Part shown: positions 14,758-22,496 of the stretch, in pieces
Numbering within the stretch: the stretch's first letter is position 1
Layout: every line of letters starts with the position of its first letter
Origin: Marivita lacus
GTDB lineage: Bacteria; Pseudomonadota; Alphaproteobacteria; Rhodobacterales; Rhodobacteraceae
Length of the DNA stretch: 59,057 nt
Reading direction: 5' to 3'
Assembly (NCBI RefSeq): GCF_014637725.1
Contig: NZ_BMFC01000018.1
Coordinates: forward strand, 3,277-62,333
The notes under the pieces: model-generated
Database searches by the model: none
Told to the model about the DNA's origin: nothing
The model's input: the letters and a program-made list of their open reading frames with translations, nothing else
Made by a program: the position numbers and the translations under genes

Positions 14758-15012
14758 TTCGCTACATTATGCAGGGGATGCCGGACTGAAAAGCCCAAGA
14801 CTTCGTTTGGATGGCCGCTTGAGCCTTGGTTCTTCGCCTTTGAAACAGGCAAACTTCGTCGCCGGACAACGGTGACATGACGAAAGCCCTTGCCAAACCT
14901 GCATTGGCTTGCCTAGCTTTACAGGACGACAGGGAACACCCCGCGCATCTTCTACGCCGCATCGAGGGCGCGCAAACAACGGGGCATGATGGTAAGGCGG
15001 CAGGTTTTTCAC

Positions 15013-16413
15013 ATGGATATCACCTTTCTTCTGAACGGAGAGAGCGTGGAGCTGCGAAACGTGTCCCCCACGGCGACGCTGCTCGACTGGTTGCGCGACA
15101 CGCGCGGCCTCACCGGCACAAAGGAAGGCTGCAACGAAGGCGACTGCGGAGCCTGCACCGTCATGGTGACGGACGCGCGCGGCGCCCGCGCCCTCAACGC
15201 CTGCATCCTTTTCCTGCCCCAGCTTGACGGCTGCGCCGTCCGCACCGTCGAGGGCATCAGCGCCCCCGATGGCACGCTTCATCCGGTGCAACAGGCGATG
15301 ATCGACCATCACGGCTCGCAATGCGGCTTCTGCACACCCGGTTTCGTCGTTTCGATGGCGGTGGCGCACCTGAACGGCGACACGGGCCATGACGACGCGC
15401 TGGCGGGCAACCTTTGCCGCTGCACCGGCTACGCCCCGATCATCCGCGCAGCGCAAGCCGCCACCGATCAGCCAGTGCCCGCCTGGATCAAGGACACACC
15501 CCCTGCTTCTCTGGTTCAAAAATACCCTTCGGGGGGTCTGGGGGGCAGACAGCCCCCCAGCGGTGCCGCACCCGAAACGCTGGACGACCTCGCAACCGCC
15601 TACGCCGCGCGTCCCGACGCGACGCTGATCGCAGGGGCGACCGATGTGGGCCTCTGGGTAACCAAGTCGCTGCTCGATCTGGACGACGTGATCTTCCTCA
15701 ATCGTTGCACCGAGCTGCAACAGATCGAAGAGAGCGACGACACGCTCCGCATCGGCGCGGGCGTGACGATGGACCGGGTCTTGCATGCGGTGAAGGACCT
15801 GCACCCCTCCTACGCCGAGATGATCCGCCGCTACGGCTCTGCACAGGTCCGCGCGGCGGCCACGATCGGCGGCAACATCGCCAACGGCTCGCCCATCGGA
15901 GACAACCCGCCTGCGCTCATCGCACTGGGGGCCACGCTGCACCTGCGGGCGGGCGATCACCGCCGCGACATGGCCCTCGAGGAGTTCTTCATCGCCTATG
16001 GCCGGCAGGACCGCGCCAAGGGTGAATTCGTCGAGGCGGTCACGATCCCGCGCCACGCACCGGGGCTGAAGGTCTACAAGCTGTCCAAACGCTTCGATCA
16101 GGACATCTCGGCCGTCTGCGGCGCGTTCAACATCAGCGTCGAAAACGGCACCGTCGCAAACGCCCGCATCGCCTTCGGCGGCATGGCGGCCACACCGAAA
16201 CGGGCAACGGCGGTCGAGACGGCCCTGACCGGCGCGGAATGGAGCGAAAAGACCGTGCGCGGCGCGATGGCCCAGATGGCAGGGGATTTTACGCCCCTGT
16301 CGGACATGCGCGCCTCAGCCGACTACCGCCTGCGCGCGGCGCAGAACATGCTCCTGCGCTATTGGCACGAGGATCAGGGCACCCCGTCGAACGTGCTGGA
16401 GGTGTCGGCATGA
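15013..16413 (+). CDS. xdhA: Xanthine dehydrogenase small subunit (2Fe-2S and FAD)
   Basis: Carries electrons from the molybdenum centre of XdhB to FAD and NAD in purine oxidation. The N-terminal half has two [2Fe-2S] sites ([22 protein letters not shown] and LCRCTGY); the C-terminal half is the FAD domain ([32 protein letters not shown]). Between them, residues about 163-187, is an unusual linker encoded by a palindromic repeat (see 15500-15560), inserted without breaking the frame. Start ATG 15013 gives 466 residues. The stop overlaps the xdhB start (ATGA). Confidence 0.95.
15500..15560 (-). repeat. Palindromic element inside xdhA (family copy 1)
   Basis: Read on the minus strand it has the same order as the xdhB copy: a G+C hairpin (perfect 9-bp stem, arms 15552-15560 and 15538-15546, loop 15547-15551), a CCCCCG-rich joint, then GTATTTTTGAACCAGAGAAGCAGGGGG (in two parts: GTATTTTTGAACC and AGAGAAGCAGGGG). 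It keeps the xdhA frame open and encodes a Gly/Pro-rich linker between the Fe-S and FAD domains. Confidence 0.75.
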
Positions 16414-18827
16414 GTGTCTCGAAACCGCTGCCCCATGACGCCGCCCGGCTGCATGTCACCGGACAGGCGCGCTATGTCGATGACATCCCGATGCCGCAGA
16501 ACACGCTGCATCTGGCCTTCGGGCTCAGCACCATCGCCGCCGGGCGGATCAGTTCGATCAACCTCGACGATGTGCGCGCCGCCCCCGGCGTGGTGCGTGT
16601 GTGGGAGGCCAAGGACCTGCCCAGCGACTGCGATTGTTCGCCCTCGAACCATGACGAGCCGATGCTGTCGGGCGCGACGATCCAGTATCTCGGTCAGCCC
16701 GTGTTTCTTGTTGCCGCGACCAGCCATCTCGCCGCGCGCAAGGCGGCCCGACTGGCCCAGATCACCTATGGCGAACGCGATGCGATCCTGACCATCGACG
16801 ATGCCATGGCCGCCAACAGCCGTTTTGAAGACGGGCCGCGCGTCTGGGAAAAGGGCGACGCAGGCGAGGCTATCGACACCGCCCCCCGCCGGATCAGCGG
16901 TGTGATCGAAATGGGCGGGCAAGAACATTTCTACCTCGAAGGCCAATCCGCGATGGCGCTGCCGCAGGAAGGCGGCGACGTGGTGGTGCATTCCTCGACC
17001 CAGCACCCGACCGAGATCCAGCACAAGGTCGCCCATGCGCTGCACCTGCCGATGCACGGCGTCCGCGTCGAGACCCGGCGCATGGGTGGCGGCTTTGGTG
17101 GCAAGGAAAGCCAGGGCAACGCGCTGGCCATCGCCTGCGCCGTGGTGGCGTCCGCCACCGGCAGGCCCGCCAAGATGCGCTATGACCGCGACGATGATTT
17201 CATGATCACCGGCAAGCGGCATGATTTCCGCATCGAATACCGTGTGGGTTTTGACGATCAGGGCGTGATTTCCGGCATCGAGTTCGAGCATTACACCCGC
17301 TGCGGCTGGGCACAGGATCTGTCGCTCCCCGTGGCCGACCGCGCGATGCTGCACGCCGACAACGCCTATCACCTGCCCCATGTGCGGATCGAAAGCCACC
17401 GGCTCAAGACCAACACCCAGAGTGCCACCGCCTTTCGCGGCTTTGGCGGCCCGCAGGGGATGCTGGGCATGGAACGGGTGATGGACCATATCGCGCATGA
17501 TCTGGGCCTCGACCCGGTCGCGGTGCGGCGGGCGAATTACTATTCGGCAGAGGTCGAGGGGGGCGCTGCCCCCGTCGCCTCCGGCGACTCCCCCGGAGGT
17601 ATTTCGGACAAGAAGAAGCAGGGGGAAGATCTCACCTCGCGCGGGGCGCAACAGGTAACCGCCGCGGGGGCACCGGTCGTGGCGGATGCCGAACAGACCA
17701 CGCCCTACGGGCAGGTCGTCGAGGATTTCATCCTGCACGAGATGACCGATCGCGTGCTGGAAGGCGCCGATTACGAGGCGCGCCGCGCGGCGGTGGCCGA
17801 CTGGAACGCGGGCAATGCCGTCATCAAGAAGGGCCTCGCCTTTACACCGGTCAAGTTCGGGATTTCCTTTACGCTGACGCATCTCAACCAGGCGGGCGCA
17901 TTGGTGCATGTGTATCAGGACGGCTCGATCCACATGAACCATGGCGGCACCGAAATGGGACAGGGCCTGTTCCAGAAGGTGGCACAGGTGGCGGCCGACC
18001 GGTTTGGGGTGCCTCTGGAGAGGGTCAAGATCACCGCGACCGACACCGCCAAGGTGCCCAACACCTCGGCCACGGCTGCCTCCAGCGGTTCTGACCTCAA
18101 CGGGATGGCGGTAAAAGCCGCCTGCGACACGATCCGCGACCGGATGGCCAATCATCTGGCGAGCCTGCACCAATGCAACACCCGCGACGTGGTGTTCGCC
18201 GATGGCACTGTCACCGTGCAGGGCGAGACCTACAGCTTTGCCAAGGTCGCGCAGCTGACCTACGAGGCGCGCATCAGCCTGTCGGCCACGGGGTTCTACC
18301 GCACGCCGAAACTCAGCTGGGACCGGATCAAGGGTCAGGGCCGCCCGTTCCTCTATTTCGCCTATGGCGCGGCGATCAGCGAAGTGGCGGTGGACACACT
18401 GACCGGCGAGTACCGCATCCTGCGCACCGACATCCTGCACGATGCGGGATCGTCGCTGAACCCGGCGCTCGACATCGGGCAGGTCGAAGGCGGGTTCGTG
18501 CAGGGCGCGGGCTGGCTGACAACCGAGGAACTGGTCTGGGATCAGTCAGGCCGTTTGCGCACCCACGCGCCCTCGACCTACAAGATCCCCGCCTGTTCGG
18601 ACCGGCCTGATGTGTTCAACGTGGCGCTCTGGGAGGGGGCCAACCGCGAGGACACGATCTACCGCTCCAAGGCGGTGGGCGAGCCCCCCTTCATGCTGGG
18701 CATGTCGGTGTTCCTCGCGTTGTCCGACGCGGTGGCGGCTTGTGGTTCGGGCTATCCGGCGCTCGACGCGCCCGCCACGCCGGAGCGGGTGCTGGCGGCC
18801 ATCGAAAGGGTGCGCGATGGCGTTTGA
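16410..18827 (+). CDS. xdhB: Xanthine dehydrogenase large (molybdopterin) subunit
   Basis: Oxidises hypoxanthine to xanthine and urate at a molybdenum cofactor. The 805-residue protein shows MGGGFGGKE near residue 225, [10 protein letters not shown] near 340, GTEMGQG and the catalytic-Glu motif VGEPPFML near the C-terminus. Between RRANYY and [11 protein letters not shown] (residues about 375-430) it carries an extra segment of some 50 residues, part of which comes from a palindromic element (17559-17625). It overlaps xdhA by four bases and xdhC by 11, so the three are translationally coupled. Confidence 0.95.
17559..17625 (+). repeat. Palindromic element inside xdhB (family copy 2)
   Basis: Two back-to-back perfect hairpins, GGGGGC-GCT-GCCCCC (17559-17573) and GTCGCC-TCC-GGCGAC (17574-17588), then CCCCCGGAGGTATTTCGGAC and AAGAAGAAGCAGGGGG. 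The 3-prime half matches the copies in xdhA (opposite orientation) and at 21288-21381. It translates as [21 protein letters not shown], with no stop, as a low-complexity insert in an otherwise conserved enzyme. Confidence 0.8.
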
Positions 18828-19770
18828 CCTTGAAAGCCTGCGCGCGGCGGTGACAGCACATGGCCGGGTCGCCCGCGTGGTGATCGCCGAGGTGCAGGGA
18901 TCTTCCCCGCGCGAGGTGGGCGCTGCGATGCTGGTCTGGGAGGGCGGGCAATCCGGCACGATCGGCGGCGGTGCGTTGGAGTATCAGGCAGCCCAGCAAG
19001 CGTTCCAGCGCGCAGGCTTCAGCAAACACCCGCTTGGCCCCGAACTGGGCCAGTGCTGCGGTGGCGCGGTCACTCTGCTGACCGAAACCTTCGACGCCGA
19101 CCGCGTGCGCGAACTGGAGGGCGAGAGCATCATCGCCCGCGGTCCGGGGGACATGCCGCTGGCCGTCAAACGACTCACCGCCTGCGCGCGCAACCAGGGC
19201 GTCGATCTGCGCCCACGCAGGGTGCAGGGCTGGTTCGTCGAGCCTCTGGCCCGTTCGACGCAGGCGCTCTGGATCTGGGGCGCGGGCCATGTCGGGCGGG
19301 CCCTCGTGGATGTGCTGCACCCGATCCCCGAGCTTGGCATCACCTGGGTCGACACCGCGCCAAGCCGCTTTCCCGACACCGTTCCCGACGCGGTGAACGC
19401 CCTGCCCGCCAGTGATCCGCTGCGCGTCGTTCAACACGCCCCCAAGGATGCCGCGCATCTGATCCTGACCTATTCCCACGCGCTTGACCTGAGCCTGTGC
19501 GACGCGCTGCTGCATCACGGGTTCGGCTTTGCGGGGCTGATCGGATCGGGTACGAAATGGGCGCGCTTTGCCTCGCGTTTGCGCAAGATGGGGCACACAG
19601 ACGCCCAAATATCTCGCATCTGCTGCCCGATTGGGCAAAAATCACTTGGCAAACATCCGCAAGCGATTGCCGTCGGGGTTGCCGCACAGCTATTGAGCCT
19701 TTCAACGACCAACGCAGGTGTTCAGTGTCCTCCAACACGACAGACAACCTCCTTCGCCTCTCGGGCCTGA
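18817..19770 (+). CDS. xdhC: Xanthine dehydrogenase accessory protein
   Basis: Binds molybdenum cofactor, helps its sulfuration and inserts it into XdhB. The 317-residue protein has the XdhC N-terminal motif GSSPREVGAAMLV with GGGALEY, a QCCGG motif, and the C-terminal Rossmann-like part WIWGAGHVGRALV, plus GLIGSGTKWARF. Start ATG 18817 lies inside the last codons of xdhB. The frame runs 46 bp into the next gene, whose GTG start lies at 19725, an unusually long overlap that ties the dehydrogenase genes to the transporter genes. Confidence 0.93.
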   Translation: MAFDLESLRAAVTAHGRVARVVIAEVQGSSPREVGAAMLVWEGGQSGTIGGGALEYQAAQQAFQRAGFSKHPLGPELGQCCGGAVTLLTETFDADRVRELEGESIIARGPGDMPLAVKRLTACARNQGVDLRPRRVQGWFVEPLARSTQALWIWGAGHVGRALVDVLHPIPELGITWVDTAPSRFPDTVPDAVNALPASDPLRVVQHAPKDAAHLILTYSHALDLSLCDALLHHGFGFAGLIGSGTKWARFASRLRKMGHTDAQISRICCPIGQKSLGKHPQAIAVGVAAQLLSLSTTNAGVQCPPTRQTTSFASRA

Positions 19771-21260
19771 CCAAGGCCTATCCCGGTGTTGTCGCCAATG
19801 ACGATGTGTCCTTCGACATCCGCGAGGGAGAGATCCACGCCTTGCTGGGTGAAAACGGCGCGGGCAAGTCCACGCTGGTCAAGATGATCTACGGGCTGGT
19901 GAAACCGGACAAGGGCAGGATGACCCTGCACGGCGCGCCCTATGCGCCGTCCGAGCCAAGTGCGGCGCGCAAGGCGGGTGTGGCGATGGTGTTCCAGCAC
20001 TTCTCGCTCTTCGATGCGCTGGACGTGGCGGAAAACGTGGCGCTTGGCATGGAGAACCCACCGCCGCGCCGCGATCTGGCCCGGCAGATCCGCGAGGTGT
20101 CGGAAACCTACGGCCTGCCGCTCGATCCGTCGCGCACCGTGGGCACGCTGTCGGCGGGCGAACGGCAGCGGGTCGAGATCATCCGCTGCCTGCTTCAGGA
20201 TCCGCGCCTTCTCATCATGGACGAGCCAACCTCGGTGCTGACGCCACAGGAAGTCGGGATCCTGTTCGAGACCCTGCGCAAGCTGAAGACCGAAGGCACC
20301 GCGATCCTCTATATCAGCCACAAGCTCGAAGAGATCCGCACGCTCTGCGACCACGCGACGATCCTGCGGCTGGGCAAGAAGGTGGCGACCTGTACACCCT
20401 CCGAGACCACCGCGCGGGCGATGGCGGAAATGATGATCGGGTCGAGCTTTGTCTCACCCACCGCGAAACACGCGATCCCCGGTGAGGTGCTCTTGCGGGT
20501 CGACAACCTGACGATGCCCCCCCCCGGCGCCTTCGGCACACCCCTGCGCGGCATCAGTTTCGAACTGCGCGCGGGCGAGGTGCTGGGCTTTGGCGGGGTC
20601 GCGGGCAACGGGCAGGATGAACTGCTGCTGGCGCTGTCGGGAGAACGCCTGACCGAGCGTGGCACGATCTGGATCAAGGGCGCGGATGCCAGCCGTGACG
20701 GGCCCGTGCTGCGCCGTGCCGCTGGTTGCCTGACCGCCCCCGAGGAACGACTGGGTCACGCGGCGGCGCCCAATATGAGCCTGACGGAAAACGCCGTGCT
20801 GACGGCGGGGCGTCGGCAAAGGCTGGTGCGAAACGGCTTTATCGACTGGAAACGCGCCGAAGGATTTGCCGCGGATGTGATCCAACGCTTCGACGTGCGC
20901 ACTCCCGGCACCCATGTGGCGGCGCGGGCCCTGTCCGGTGGCAATTTGCAGAAATTCGTCATCGGGCGCGAGGTGGCGCAGAACCCGGACATCCTTGTGG
21001 TGAACCAGCCCACATGGGGCGTAGATGCCGCCGCCGCCGCCGCGATCCGGCAGGCCCTGCTGGATCTCGCCTCCAAGGGCGCCGCGATCCTGGTGATCAG
21101 TCAGGACCTGGACGAGCTTCTGGAAATCGCCGACCGCTTTGGGGCGTTGAACGAGGGGCGGCTGTCGCCGCTCAAGCCGGTGGCGGATCTGAGCATCGAC
21201 GAGATCGGCCTGATGATGGGCGGCGCGCATGACATGGAGGTGGCCCATGTGGAGGCGTGA
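19725..21260 (+). CDS. Nucleoside/purine ABC transporter, ATP-binding protein
   Basis: A 511-residue protein with two fused ABC domains, as in BMP-family nucleoside importers. Domain 1 is canonical: Walker A GENGAGKST, signature LSAGERQRVEI, Walker B LLIMDEPTS. Domain 2 is altered: Walker A position reads GVAGNGQDE, but LSGGNLQKFVIGRE is retained. The start is GTG 19725 (VSSNTTDNLLRLSGLTKAYPG) with an AGG-type ribosome site; the frame opens much earlier inside xdhC. Placement after xdhC argues for purine base or nucleoside import feeding xanthine dehydrogenase. Confidence 0.9.
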   Translation: MSSNTTDNLLRLSGLTKAYPGVVANDDVSFDIREGEIHALLGENGAGKSTLVKMIYGLVKPDKGRMTLHGAPYAPSEPSAARKAGVAMVFQHFSLFDALDVAENVALGMENPPPRRDLARQIREVSETYGLPLDPSRTVGTLSAGERQRVEIIRCLLQDPRLLIMDEPTSVLTPQEVGILFETLRKLKTEGTAILYISHKLEEIRTLCDHATILRLGKKVATCTPSETTARAMAEMMIGSSFVSPTAKHAIPGEVLLRVDNLTMPPPGAFGTPLRGISFELRAGEVLGFGGVAGNGQDELLLALSGERLTERGTIWIKGADASRDGPVLRRAAGCLTAPEERLGHAAAPNMSLTENAVLTAGRRQRLVRNGFIDWKRAEGFAADVIQRFDVRTPGTHVAARALSGGNLQKFVIGREVAQNPDILVVNQPTWGVDAAAAAAIRQALLDLASKGAAILVISQDLDELLEIADRFGALNEGRLSPLKPVADLSIDEIGLMMGGAHDMEVAHVEA

Positions 21261-21287
21261 CGCATCAGCCAACCGCTCCCTCAGATT

Positions 21288-21381
21288 GGTGGCGTTTCAT
21301 TTGCATATTTTTGAAAAGAAGAAGCAGGGGCAGTGCGCGCCACTCCCTTGTTCTTCTTTTTCCAAATATGCACACGCCACC
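21288..21381. repeat. Long inverted repeat with family core (copy 3)
   Basis: Arms 21288-21323 and 21351-21381 pair imperfectly: outer GGTGGCGT/ACGCCACC perfectly, inner TGCATATTT...AAGAAGAA over 22 positions with three mismatches, around a 27-nt loop. The left arm, TATTTTTGAAAAGAAGAAGC followed by AGGGG, matches the core of the elements in xdhA and xdhB. It fills the gap between the ATPase and first permease genes and ends 29 nt before the GTG start, so it may attenuate transcription or set mRNA stability. Confidence 0.8.
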
Positions 21382-21410
21382 TGCCACCCGGCACATACGG
21401 AGGGGTTGCG

Positions 21411-22496
21411 GTGATCCGGCTCGAAAAGCGCCCGCAGCCGTCAAGGGCATGGACAGTGGCGACACCGATCCTGGCGGTGATCCTGACGATGATCTTCGGC
21501 GGCATCATGTTCAGCCTGATCGGCACCTCGCCGTTCGAGGCGATCCGCACGATCTTCTGGGATCCGCTGTTTCATCCGCAATTCGCGGCGTTCTCGCGCC
21601 CGCAACTGCTGGTCAAGGCGGGGCCGCTGATCCTCATCGCCATCGGCCTGTCGATCGGCTTCCGCGCGGGCATCTGGAACATCGGGGCCGAGGGGCAATA
21701 CATCATCGGCGCGATCTGCGGCGCGGCGGCGGGTCTGGCGCTTTACCCGATGGAGTCGGCGCTGATCCTGCCGCTGATGATCGTGGCGGGGGCCTTGGGC
21801 GGCTGGGCCTGGGCGATGATCCCGGCACTTCTGAAGGTGCGCTTCGGCACCAACGAAATCCTCGTCTCGCTGATGCTGGTCTACGTGGCCGAGAACCTCT
21901 TGGCGTCGGTGTCGTCGGGCATCCTGCGCAATCCCGAAGGCATGGGCTTTCCCGGCTCGCGCAACCTGTCGCAATGGTCGTCGTCGCAGAACCTCGAACT
22001 GATCCCGAACACCGGCATGCACCTCGGCGTGCTGACCGCCTTCATCGCGGTGATCCTCGCCTATGTGCTGCTGACGCGGCATATCCAGGGCTACAACATC
22101 CGCCTGACCGGCGAGGCTCCGCGCGCGGCGAAATTCGCAGGCGTGTCGCCCGCACGCACGATCCTGTTCTGTCTGGGCACTGCCGGCGTGCTGGCGGGCA
22201 TGGCGGGGCTGTTCGAGGTCACAGGACCGGCGGGGCAAGTCAGCATCGACTTCGGGTCGGGCTATGGCTTTACCGCGATCATCGTGGCCTTCCTGGGTCG
22301 GTTGCACCCGGTGGGCATCCTGCTGGCGGGGCTGCTCATGGCGCTGACCTACATTGGTGGCGAGTTGGCGCAGCTGATGCTGGGCGTGCCCGGCGCGTCG
22401 ATCCAGCTTTTTCAGGGCATGCTGCTGTTCTTCCTGTTGGGGGTGGATGTATTGACAAATTACCGCGTCCGCTTCGGCGCAAGCGAGGTGGCGTGA
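21411..22496 (+). CDS. Nucleoside/purine ABC transporter, permease 1
   Basis: A 361-residue inner-membrane permease of the BPD_transp_2 (branched-chain/ribose) class, with about nine hydrophobic segments. The family motif GFRAGIWNIGAEGQYIIGA (residues about 80-98) and RLTGEAPRAAKFAGVSPART in the cytoplasmic loop that contacts the ATPase identify it. I chose GTG 21411 (VIRLEKRPQPSRAW), preceded by GGAGG at 8 nt; an earlier in-frame ATG at 21333 lies within the inverted repeat and would give an aberrant N-terminus. The stop overlaps the next start. Confidence 0.9.
   Translation: MIRLEKRPQPSRAWTVATPILAVILTMIFGGIMFSLIGTSPFEAIRTIFWDPLFHPQFAAFSRPQLLVKAGPLILIAIGLSIGFRAGIWNIGAEGQYIIGAICGAAAGLALYPMESALILPLMIVAGALGGWAWAMIPALLKVRFGTNEILVSLMLVYVAENLLASVSSGILRNPEGMGFPGSRNLSQWSSSQNLELIPNTGMHLGVLTAFIAVILAYVLLTRHIQGYNIRLTGEAPRAAKFAGVSPARTILFCLGTAGVLAGMAGLFEVTGPAGQVSIDFGSGYGFTAIIVAFLGRLHPVGILLAGLLMALTYIGGELAQLMLGVPGASIQLFQGMLLFFLLGVDVLTNYRVRFGASEVA

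Follow-up and report, generated by a model that had tools for sequence, protein, structure and literature searches.

The stretch of DNA analysed here, referred to as the window, comprises 59,057 nucleotides of the Marivita lacus genome and carries the genes encoding two subunits of xanthine dehydrogenase. Both genes are host to a copy of a palindromic repeat, which is also found in an intergenic gap of the window. The features considered are as follows.

14986..16413, + strand: xdhA, FeS/FAD subunit, host gene (Pfam)
15501..15559 (C18:18777-18835), - strand: antisense copy in xdhA, with a subtype C tail, TATTTTTGAACCAGAGAAGCAGGGGG (tail match, covariance model, reading)
16410..18827, + strand: xdhB, molybdopterin-binding subunit of xanthine dehydrogenase, host gene (Pfam MoCoBD_1 and MoCoBD_2; relative of 1JRO chain B)
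17559..17573, + strand: hairpin 1, GGGGGC-GCT-GCCCCC, GGGGGCGCTGCCCCC (sequence, fold)
17574..17588, + strand: hairpin 2, GTCGCC-TCC-GGCGAC, GTCGCCTCCGGCGAC, with arms that vary between copies (sequence, fold; in other XdhB copies still palindromic, but with different arms)
17589..17599, + strand: C-run and GGAGG spacer, TCCCCCGGAGG, the CCCCCGRRG module (alignment of 28 own-genome copies)
17600..17625, + strand: tail TATTTCGGACAAGAAGAAG-CAGGGGG, subtype A, encoding ISDKKKQG (51 genome tail matches; alignment)
21302..21372, no single strand: inverted tail pair of subtype B, GCATATTT... (tail patterns, covariance model, fold)

In xdhB the element runs from 17559 to 17625 in the order GGGGGCGCTGCCCCC, GTCGCCTCCGGCGAC, TCCCCCGGAGG, TATTTCGGACAAGAAGAAG and CAGGGGG. 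As described in the original prediction, two perfect hairpins, each with a 6-bp stem and a 3-base loop, are exactly adjacent and followed by a tail within the coding sequence, and the reading frame stays open across them. RNA folding adds a third stem, in which the C-run pairs with the final G-run, and the complete element has a predicted folding energy of -33.9 kcal/mol, with a z-score of only -1.7 against shuffled sequences. The element corresponds to 22 in-frame residues (384-405) located between the two molybdenum-cofactor (molybdopterin-binding) domains, MoCoBD_1 (aa 145-377) and MoCoBD_2 (aa 449-733). The segment of about 50 residues originally attributed to it is the full variable linker, of which the element encodes approximately 22. 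Judging from its variability and from the Pfam boundaries, this linker is probably a surface loop. The closest other copy, intergenic at C2:187410, shares 92% identity with the xdhB element over 60 bases.

The same tail had also been proposed to occur in xdhA and at 21288-21381. A copy is indeed present in xdhA, but it lies on the minus strand and carries a different tail subtype; it falls in the linker that separates the [2Fe-2S] domain, which ends at aa 157, from the FAD domain, which starts at aa 195, and the xdhA frame is open through the antisense element, which encodes approximately 22 residues. Tails are likewise found in the second region, but these represent a third subtype, arranged as an inverted pair in an intergenic gap flanked by genes for an ABC ATPase and a permease, and here the fold of 21288-21381 has a z-score of -8.4. 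No Rfam family matches the window at gathering score, nor the interval 15400-21500 at E<=1. Near the window start an exact 32-base duplication occupies 1-32 and 393-424, 392 bases apart.

Searches of the whole window genome (G000; 4.77 Mb in 65 contigs) revealed a dispersed family. The pattern TATTTN{2,14}AAGAAGAAG has 51 matches, against none for the reversed control, and TATTTN{2,12}CCAGAGAA has 30, against one, which together represent 81 distinct copies. A covariance model built from 28 copies, with which it had been suggested that further copies should be sought, found many: 94 matches at E<=1, 53 of them below 0.001 and all 28 training copies included, in a search that scored only 150 of 1669 first-look candidates. 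Since 18 of these 94 have no tail match and five tail matches are missed by the model, the total is 99 candidate places, a few of which may be chance matches, perhaps including several weak model matches (L353-L356). The tails fall into subtypes GAGTATTTGGAACAAGAAGAAG, GCATATTTGGAAAAAGAAGAAG and CCGAGGTATTTNNGAACCAGAGAAG, with variation. Of the 81 tail copies, 32 have a G-run/C-run hairpin in the 60 bases upstream, so that in many copies the tail stands without hairpin 1. The copies are normally intergenic and mostly downstream of a gene: in a tally that also counts both xdh copies, 35 of the 81 lie between two genes in the direction of the element, 10 between two genes in the opposite direction, 22 between converging and one between diverging genes, and 13 are unclear. 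Each of the six tail frames is free of stop codons in 60-79 of the 81 copies, more than in shuffled sequences. No target duplication was noticed around the copies, and no mobilising enzyme was found for the repeat. Some copies have particular surroundings. At L037 the element begins right at the T-run of a hairpin resembling an intrinsic terminator, and at L006, L022 and L051 elements likewise adjoin T-runs. Extra palindromes (GTTTCCG..CGGAAAC, GATGCGT..ACGCATC) stand beside the element at L033, L034 and L039, which suggests a larger modular mosaic.

Only two of the 99 places in the window genome are inside genes, namely the xdhB copy and the antisense xdhA copy. Of these places, 98 were assessed by codon score or by reading, the remaining one being the intergenic copy of the window at 21345-21372. 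The codon score, for which the genes of the window served as training set, recovered the two xdh copies, although strongly decayed coding copies would escape it. At a loose threshold it flagged five of the 81 tail copies, and none of the 17 further covariance-model matches. The other three flagged copies, L045, L060 and L101, were rejected as coding copies: in each a stop codon closely precedes the element in that frame, and at L060 the frame continues without a stop into the following gene, which has its own start further on. Being located just after stop codons, these three lie between genes, and thus only the two xdh copies are coding. In four relatives, none of 60 loci is within a gene (0 of 30 in G018 and 0 of 30 in G041, G006 and G053 together), these loci being the first of 134 and 116 matches, taken without the xdh copies of those genomes and possibly including a few chance matches. 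Among public plasmids, searched at the best place per record and with an incomplete gene table, 20 of 30 matching records are covered to at least 80%, and in 18 of these the best match overlies no listed feature, while two lack annotation. Partial matches lie under genes in two Paracoccus records (32 bases under a FixB gene) and in one Streptomyces record (22 bases).

The repeat belongs to the Rhodobacteraceae/Roseobacter group. A strict tail pattern has at least five matches in 30 of 61 genomes of the family and in none of 40 outside it, and at least one match in 41 of the 61, the window genome included, against one of the 40, where the match is single; single matches of this pattern are at the level of the control, which has one match in 6 of 101 genomes. 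A looser tail pattern yields 17-134 matches per genome, against 0-8 for the reversed control, in each of 11 genomes. G041 and G053, which have other tails, show no match to the strict pattern and 40 and 39, respectively, to the looser one. The main tail differs by genome, being CCCGGGATATTTNNGGACAGAAGAA in G018 (134 pattern matches, none in the control) and CCCGGAGTATTTNNGGAAAGATGAA in G041.

In order to compare the insert among orthologues, XdhB sequences were collected from 140 loci, 139 of which gave a linker (L194 gave none), resulting in 130 distinct sequences. A core, CCSRRRNTATTT, is present with at most one mismatch in the forward direction in 58 of the 130 XdhB linkers and in reverse in one, where codon shuffles expect 1.2, and the reading phase is identical in all 58 carriers. 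In XdhA linkers the same core occurs in reverse in 30 of 121 and never forward, with 1.1 expected, and 29 of the 30 share one phase; the strict core fails to detect the window's own XdhA copy. Both XdhB and genomic copies were consulted when the core was designed, so the comparison with chance is somewhat too favourable; a longer form of this core is the looser tail pattern that is enriched in each of the 11 genomes above. With tuned cores, derived from those same XdhB linkers, 75 of the 130 are within two mismatches, including a false match, L330. The carriers belong to 23 of 40 named groups and to 25 of 45 coded genera, two overlapping lists in which samples share genera and are not independent. 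The linker is hypervariable and the insert absent from many orthologues, so that the segment is not a conserved part of all XdhB proteins. In five genomes from outside the family in which both XdhB blocks were matched (G067, G074, G096, G099 and G100), 6-12 bases separate the blocks, corresponding to 2-4 residues instead of 46-49; two more matched one block only. In XdhB copies hairpin 2 is still palindromic with changed arms, with a mean longest stem of 4.96 against 2.93 in shuffled sequences (48 segments, some wrongly cut). A different hairpin module, with the head CCTCCGGCGGG, is found at the same linker in L081, L082, L165, L170, L190 and L324. After TATTT, at the base that determines which residue follows Ile, 50 of the 58 XdhB copies have C, compared with 87 of 416 listed genomic copies, and the corresponding codon is Ser in 48 of the 58. 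This excess of C is consistent with Ser having been favoured by selection and Trp or Phe disfavoured.

The tails of the XdhB inserts often resemble those of intergenic copies in the same genome. Ten XdhB tails were compared over the last 11 positions with tail lists of twelve genomes, which are partial and partly hand-picked (51 of 134 matches in G018; 11 of 54 in G015; 32 of 37 in G006, where five rows without an element-like tail were dropped; 13 in G003 and 13 in G012, picked by eye; and, for G000, a list made with other patterns) and in which the XdhB copies were kept, being removed for the own-genome comparison only. In seven of the ten genomes, 19-77% of the genome's own listed copies are within one mismatch of the XdhB tail. 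The own list has the highest share of the twelve in G000, G041, G018, G060 and G055 (27-77%), while the list of a congener scores higher for G015 (own 60%) and G006 (own 19%), and the XdhB tails of G027, G051 and G012 lack a good counterpart in the same genome (12%, 0% and 0% of listed copies differing at no more than one position). When the lists are ranked by mean distance, the genome's own list comes out nearest for only four of the ten. When the ten inserts were reassigned to the ten genomes in 20,000 permutation draws, an equal or better sum was obtained in a fraction of 0.00025. In G018 the XdhA insert also carries the same host tail.

On a FastTree phylogeny of the 130 XdhB sequences without the linker, presence of the insert changes at least 27 times with a loose core or at least 30 times with the strict core, against a shuffled mean of 42-43, which argues for both descent and turnover. 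The insert is not new to M. lacus, as a version of it is found in 12 of 14 Marivita orthologues by the loose test; by the strict test the core is found in three of the 14, M. lacus among them. These loci (genus code g1) were assigned to Marivita through named records that have identical linkers. Most other Marivita share one decayed insert, that is, vertical descent. The left junction GAGGTCGAGGGGGGC is common to seven of the 14 Marivita linkers, including that of the window genome, while the interior and the tail differ. XdhA copies are patchy within Ruegeria, and the XdhA of L072 is devoid of the element-coded stretch that is present in most congeners.

Taken together, these results make it probable that xanthine dehydrogenase has, at two of its inter-domain linkers, repeatedly acquired a REP-like palindromic repeat by capture or conversion. 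The element is small, apparently non-autonomous and REP-like, and occupies the variable xdh linkers in frame, in sense orientation in XdhB and antisense in XdhA. We hypothesize that its recurrence results from repeated turnover, either by insertion, by loss or by conversion of the linker by the current subfamily of the lineage; that inter-domain linkers tolerate a soluble peptide and the element can be read without stops; and that selection may retain only versions which read as a soluble, flexible peptide, usually with a Ser codon after ATT and no stop codons. Nevertheless, a single ancestral insertion would likewise produce a constant phase and orientation. A serious rival is one ancestral insertion per subunit gene, retained since then, homogenised with intergenic copies by ectopic gene conversion (concerted evolution) and lost in some lineages. 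It would account for the left junction shared by half of the Marivita linkers while interior and tail differ, and for a similar peptide already being found in the xanthine dehydrogenase of R. capsulatus. The 27-30 or more changes between presence and absence, the differing hairpin modules at the same linker, including the CCTCCGGCGGG head, and the patchy XdhA copies inside Ruegeria speak against it, and we regard it as possible but somewhat doubtful.

The hairpins might instead act as an mRNA element in xdhA and xdhB, for example by slowing translation at domain boundaries for domain or cofactor assembly, with the intergenic copies serving at mRNA 3' ends. The position of both coding copies exactly between Pfam domains would suit such a role, as would the palindromic state of hairpin 2 despite changed arms and the finding of no other host gene in the window genome and the loci of the four relatives; yet the xdhA copy is antisense, 72 of the 130 XdhB linkers lack the strict core and the xdhB fold has a z-score of only -1.7, all of which renders this explanation unlikely. 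A linker that is simply hypervariable and of low complexity, in a genome rich in GC, and that resembles the repeat by chance would agree with the wide variation of the linker and with unrelated motifs such as GPGTGRRFGGAHSP in other linkers. Chance similarity was rejected, and we consider it extremely improbable, owing to the 60-base match with an intergenic copy and to the excess of the core over expectation, in a single phase.

Concerning known systems, MITEs and mosaic intergenic elements of rhizobia (RIME) are modular palindromes in alphaproteobacterial intergenic gaps, and by description the present repeat is similar to these. The closest comparisons are with the Rickettsia elements considered below and with intragenic REPs. 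REPs are high-copy short palindromes which are reported to be mostly intergenic, at gene 3' ends, with some within genes, and to occur at about the same recB site in two Xanthomonas species (PMC3733652). The repeat described here is also high-copy, short and mostly extragenic, and its distribution at gene ends resembles that given in PMC3733652, the main text of which does not contain the words Rhodobacter, Roseobacter or Ruegeria. In contrast to GTAG/CGTC REPs, the tag is not conserved: within 45 bases upstream of the tail, CGTC is found in 21 and GTAG in one of the 81 own copies, and other genomes have variable sequence at the matching place. A RAYT-driven REP system was rejected for the window genome, which has no match to Y1_Tnp (PF01797); this family is present in 13 of 61 genomes overall and in 6 of 37 in the Rhodobacteraceae.

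The original prediction had likened the insert to Rickettsia palindromic elements (RPEs), which are reported to be inserted in frame in many unrelated protein genes and also found outside genes (PMC10969869). A palindromic family that uses both genes and gaps while keeping the frame is confirmed here by the 99 places and the two open xdh frames, and in this respect the likeness in behaviour holds. The part of the analogy that concerns spreading through protein-coding genes is not supported: RPEs occupy many unrelated genes, whereas here two places of 99, both in one enzyme, and none of the 60 in four relatives are within genes, and the same site is occupied across many genera, often by the host's own subfamily. 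Lacking the many host genes of RPEs as well as the tag and the transposase of REPs, the repeat is REP-like and RPE-like in behaviour and a member of neither group.

In the B chain of the crystallised R. capsulatus enzyme (1JRO and others), the peptide NFYDPPERGGLSAPPSP.EPIATKKTQTTHYG (the dot standing for one residue not printed) is found at the same place, and in L319, a relative, a similar peptide, NFYAEAGGASAPPSPPEGISAKKTQCTHYG, is encoded by DNA in which the core is exact. On the basis of the peptide, the R. capsulatus segment probably derives from the element; the best match for R. capsulatus among 394 genomes is 78%, the species itself seemingly lying outside that set. We tentatively propose, as a reading that may be correct but that we hold to be somewhat short of an even chance, that an enzyme evolves in concert with selfish DNA, the two xdh linkers being repeatedly overwritten by the current palindromic subfamily of the host lineage, at the same codons, phase and orientation, throughout the family and probably including the R. 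capsulatus enzyme. If so, part of a protein sequence would be dictated by intergenic repeat DNA across a bacterial family. The occupation of the same spots in many genera, often by the version of the host genus, makes it appear that repeat DNA supplies part of an enzyme's sequence and repeatedly replaces it. Coding palindromes are already known, above all from Rickettsia, where the insertions are dispersed among many genes; in the literature searched, lying mostly outside subscription journals, no description of this repeat family or of such same-site turnover was found. The enzyme has a known structure, and one of its linkers is found across many genera in empty, occupied and decayed states and in lineage-specific versions, which allows a direct comparison of how the repeat enters, is lost or is converted and of how selection acts on the peptide it encodes. 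The analysis also adds a repeat family without an Rfam match and helps to account for the strong variability of the XdhB and XdhA linkers in Rhodobacteraceae.

Several linkers have contents of their own. In the XdhB linkers of L066 and L134, a longer palindrome, GTCGCCAGTGC...GCACTGGCGAC, takes the place of hairpin 1 or extends it, a picture that resembles the insertion of one palindrome into another. A recurring GPGTGRRFGGAHSP-like peptide takes the place of the repeat in the XdhB linkers of L086, L088, L188, L193, L330 and L335, and that of L158 has a run of seven lysines. The XdhA FeS/FAD linker of L085, free of the element, contains a short tandem repeat with a period of about nine residues (EDTSFTAVR/EDTSLNAVR/EDT...).
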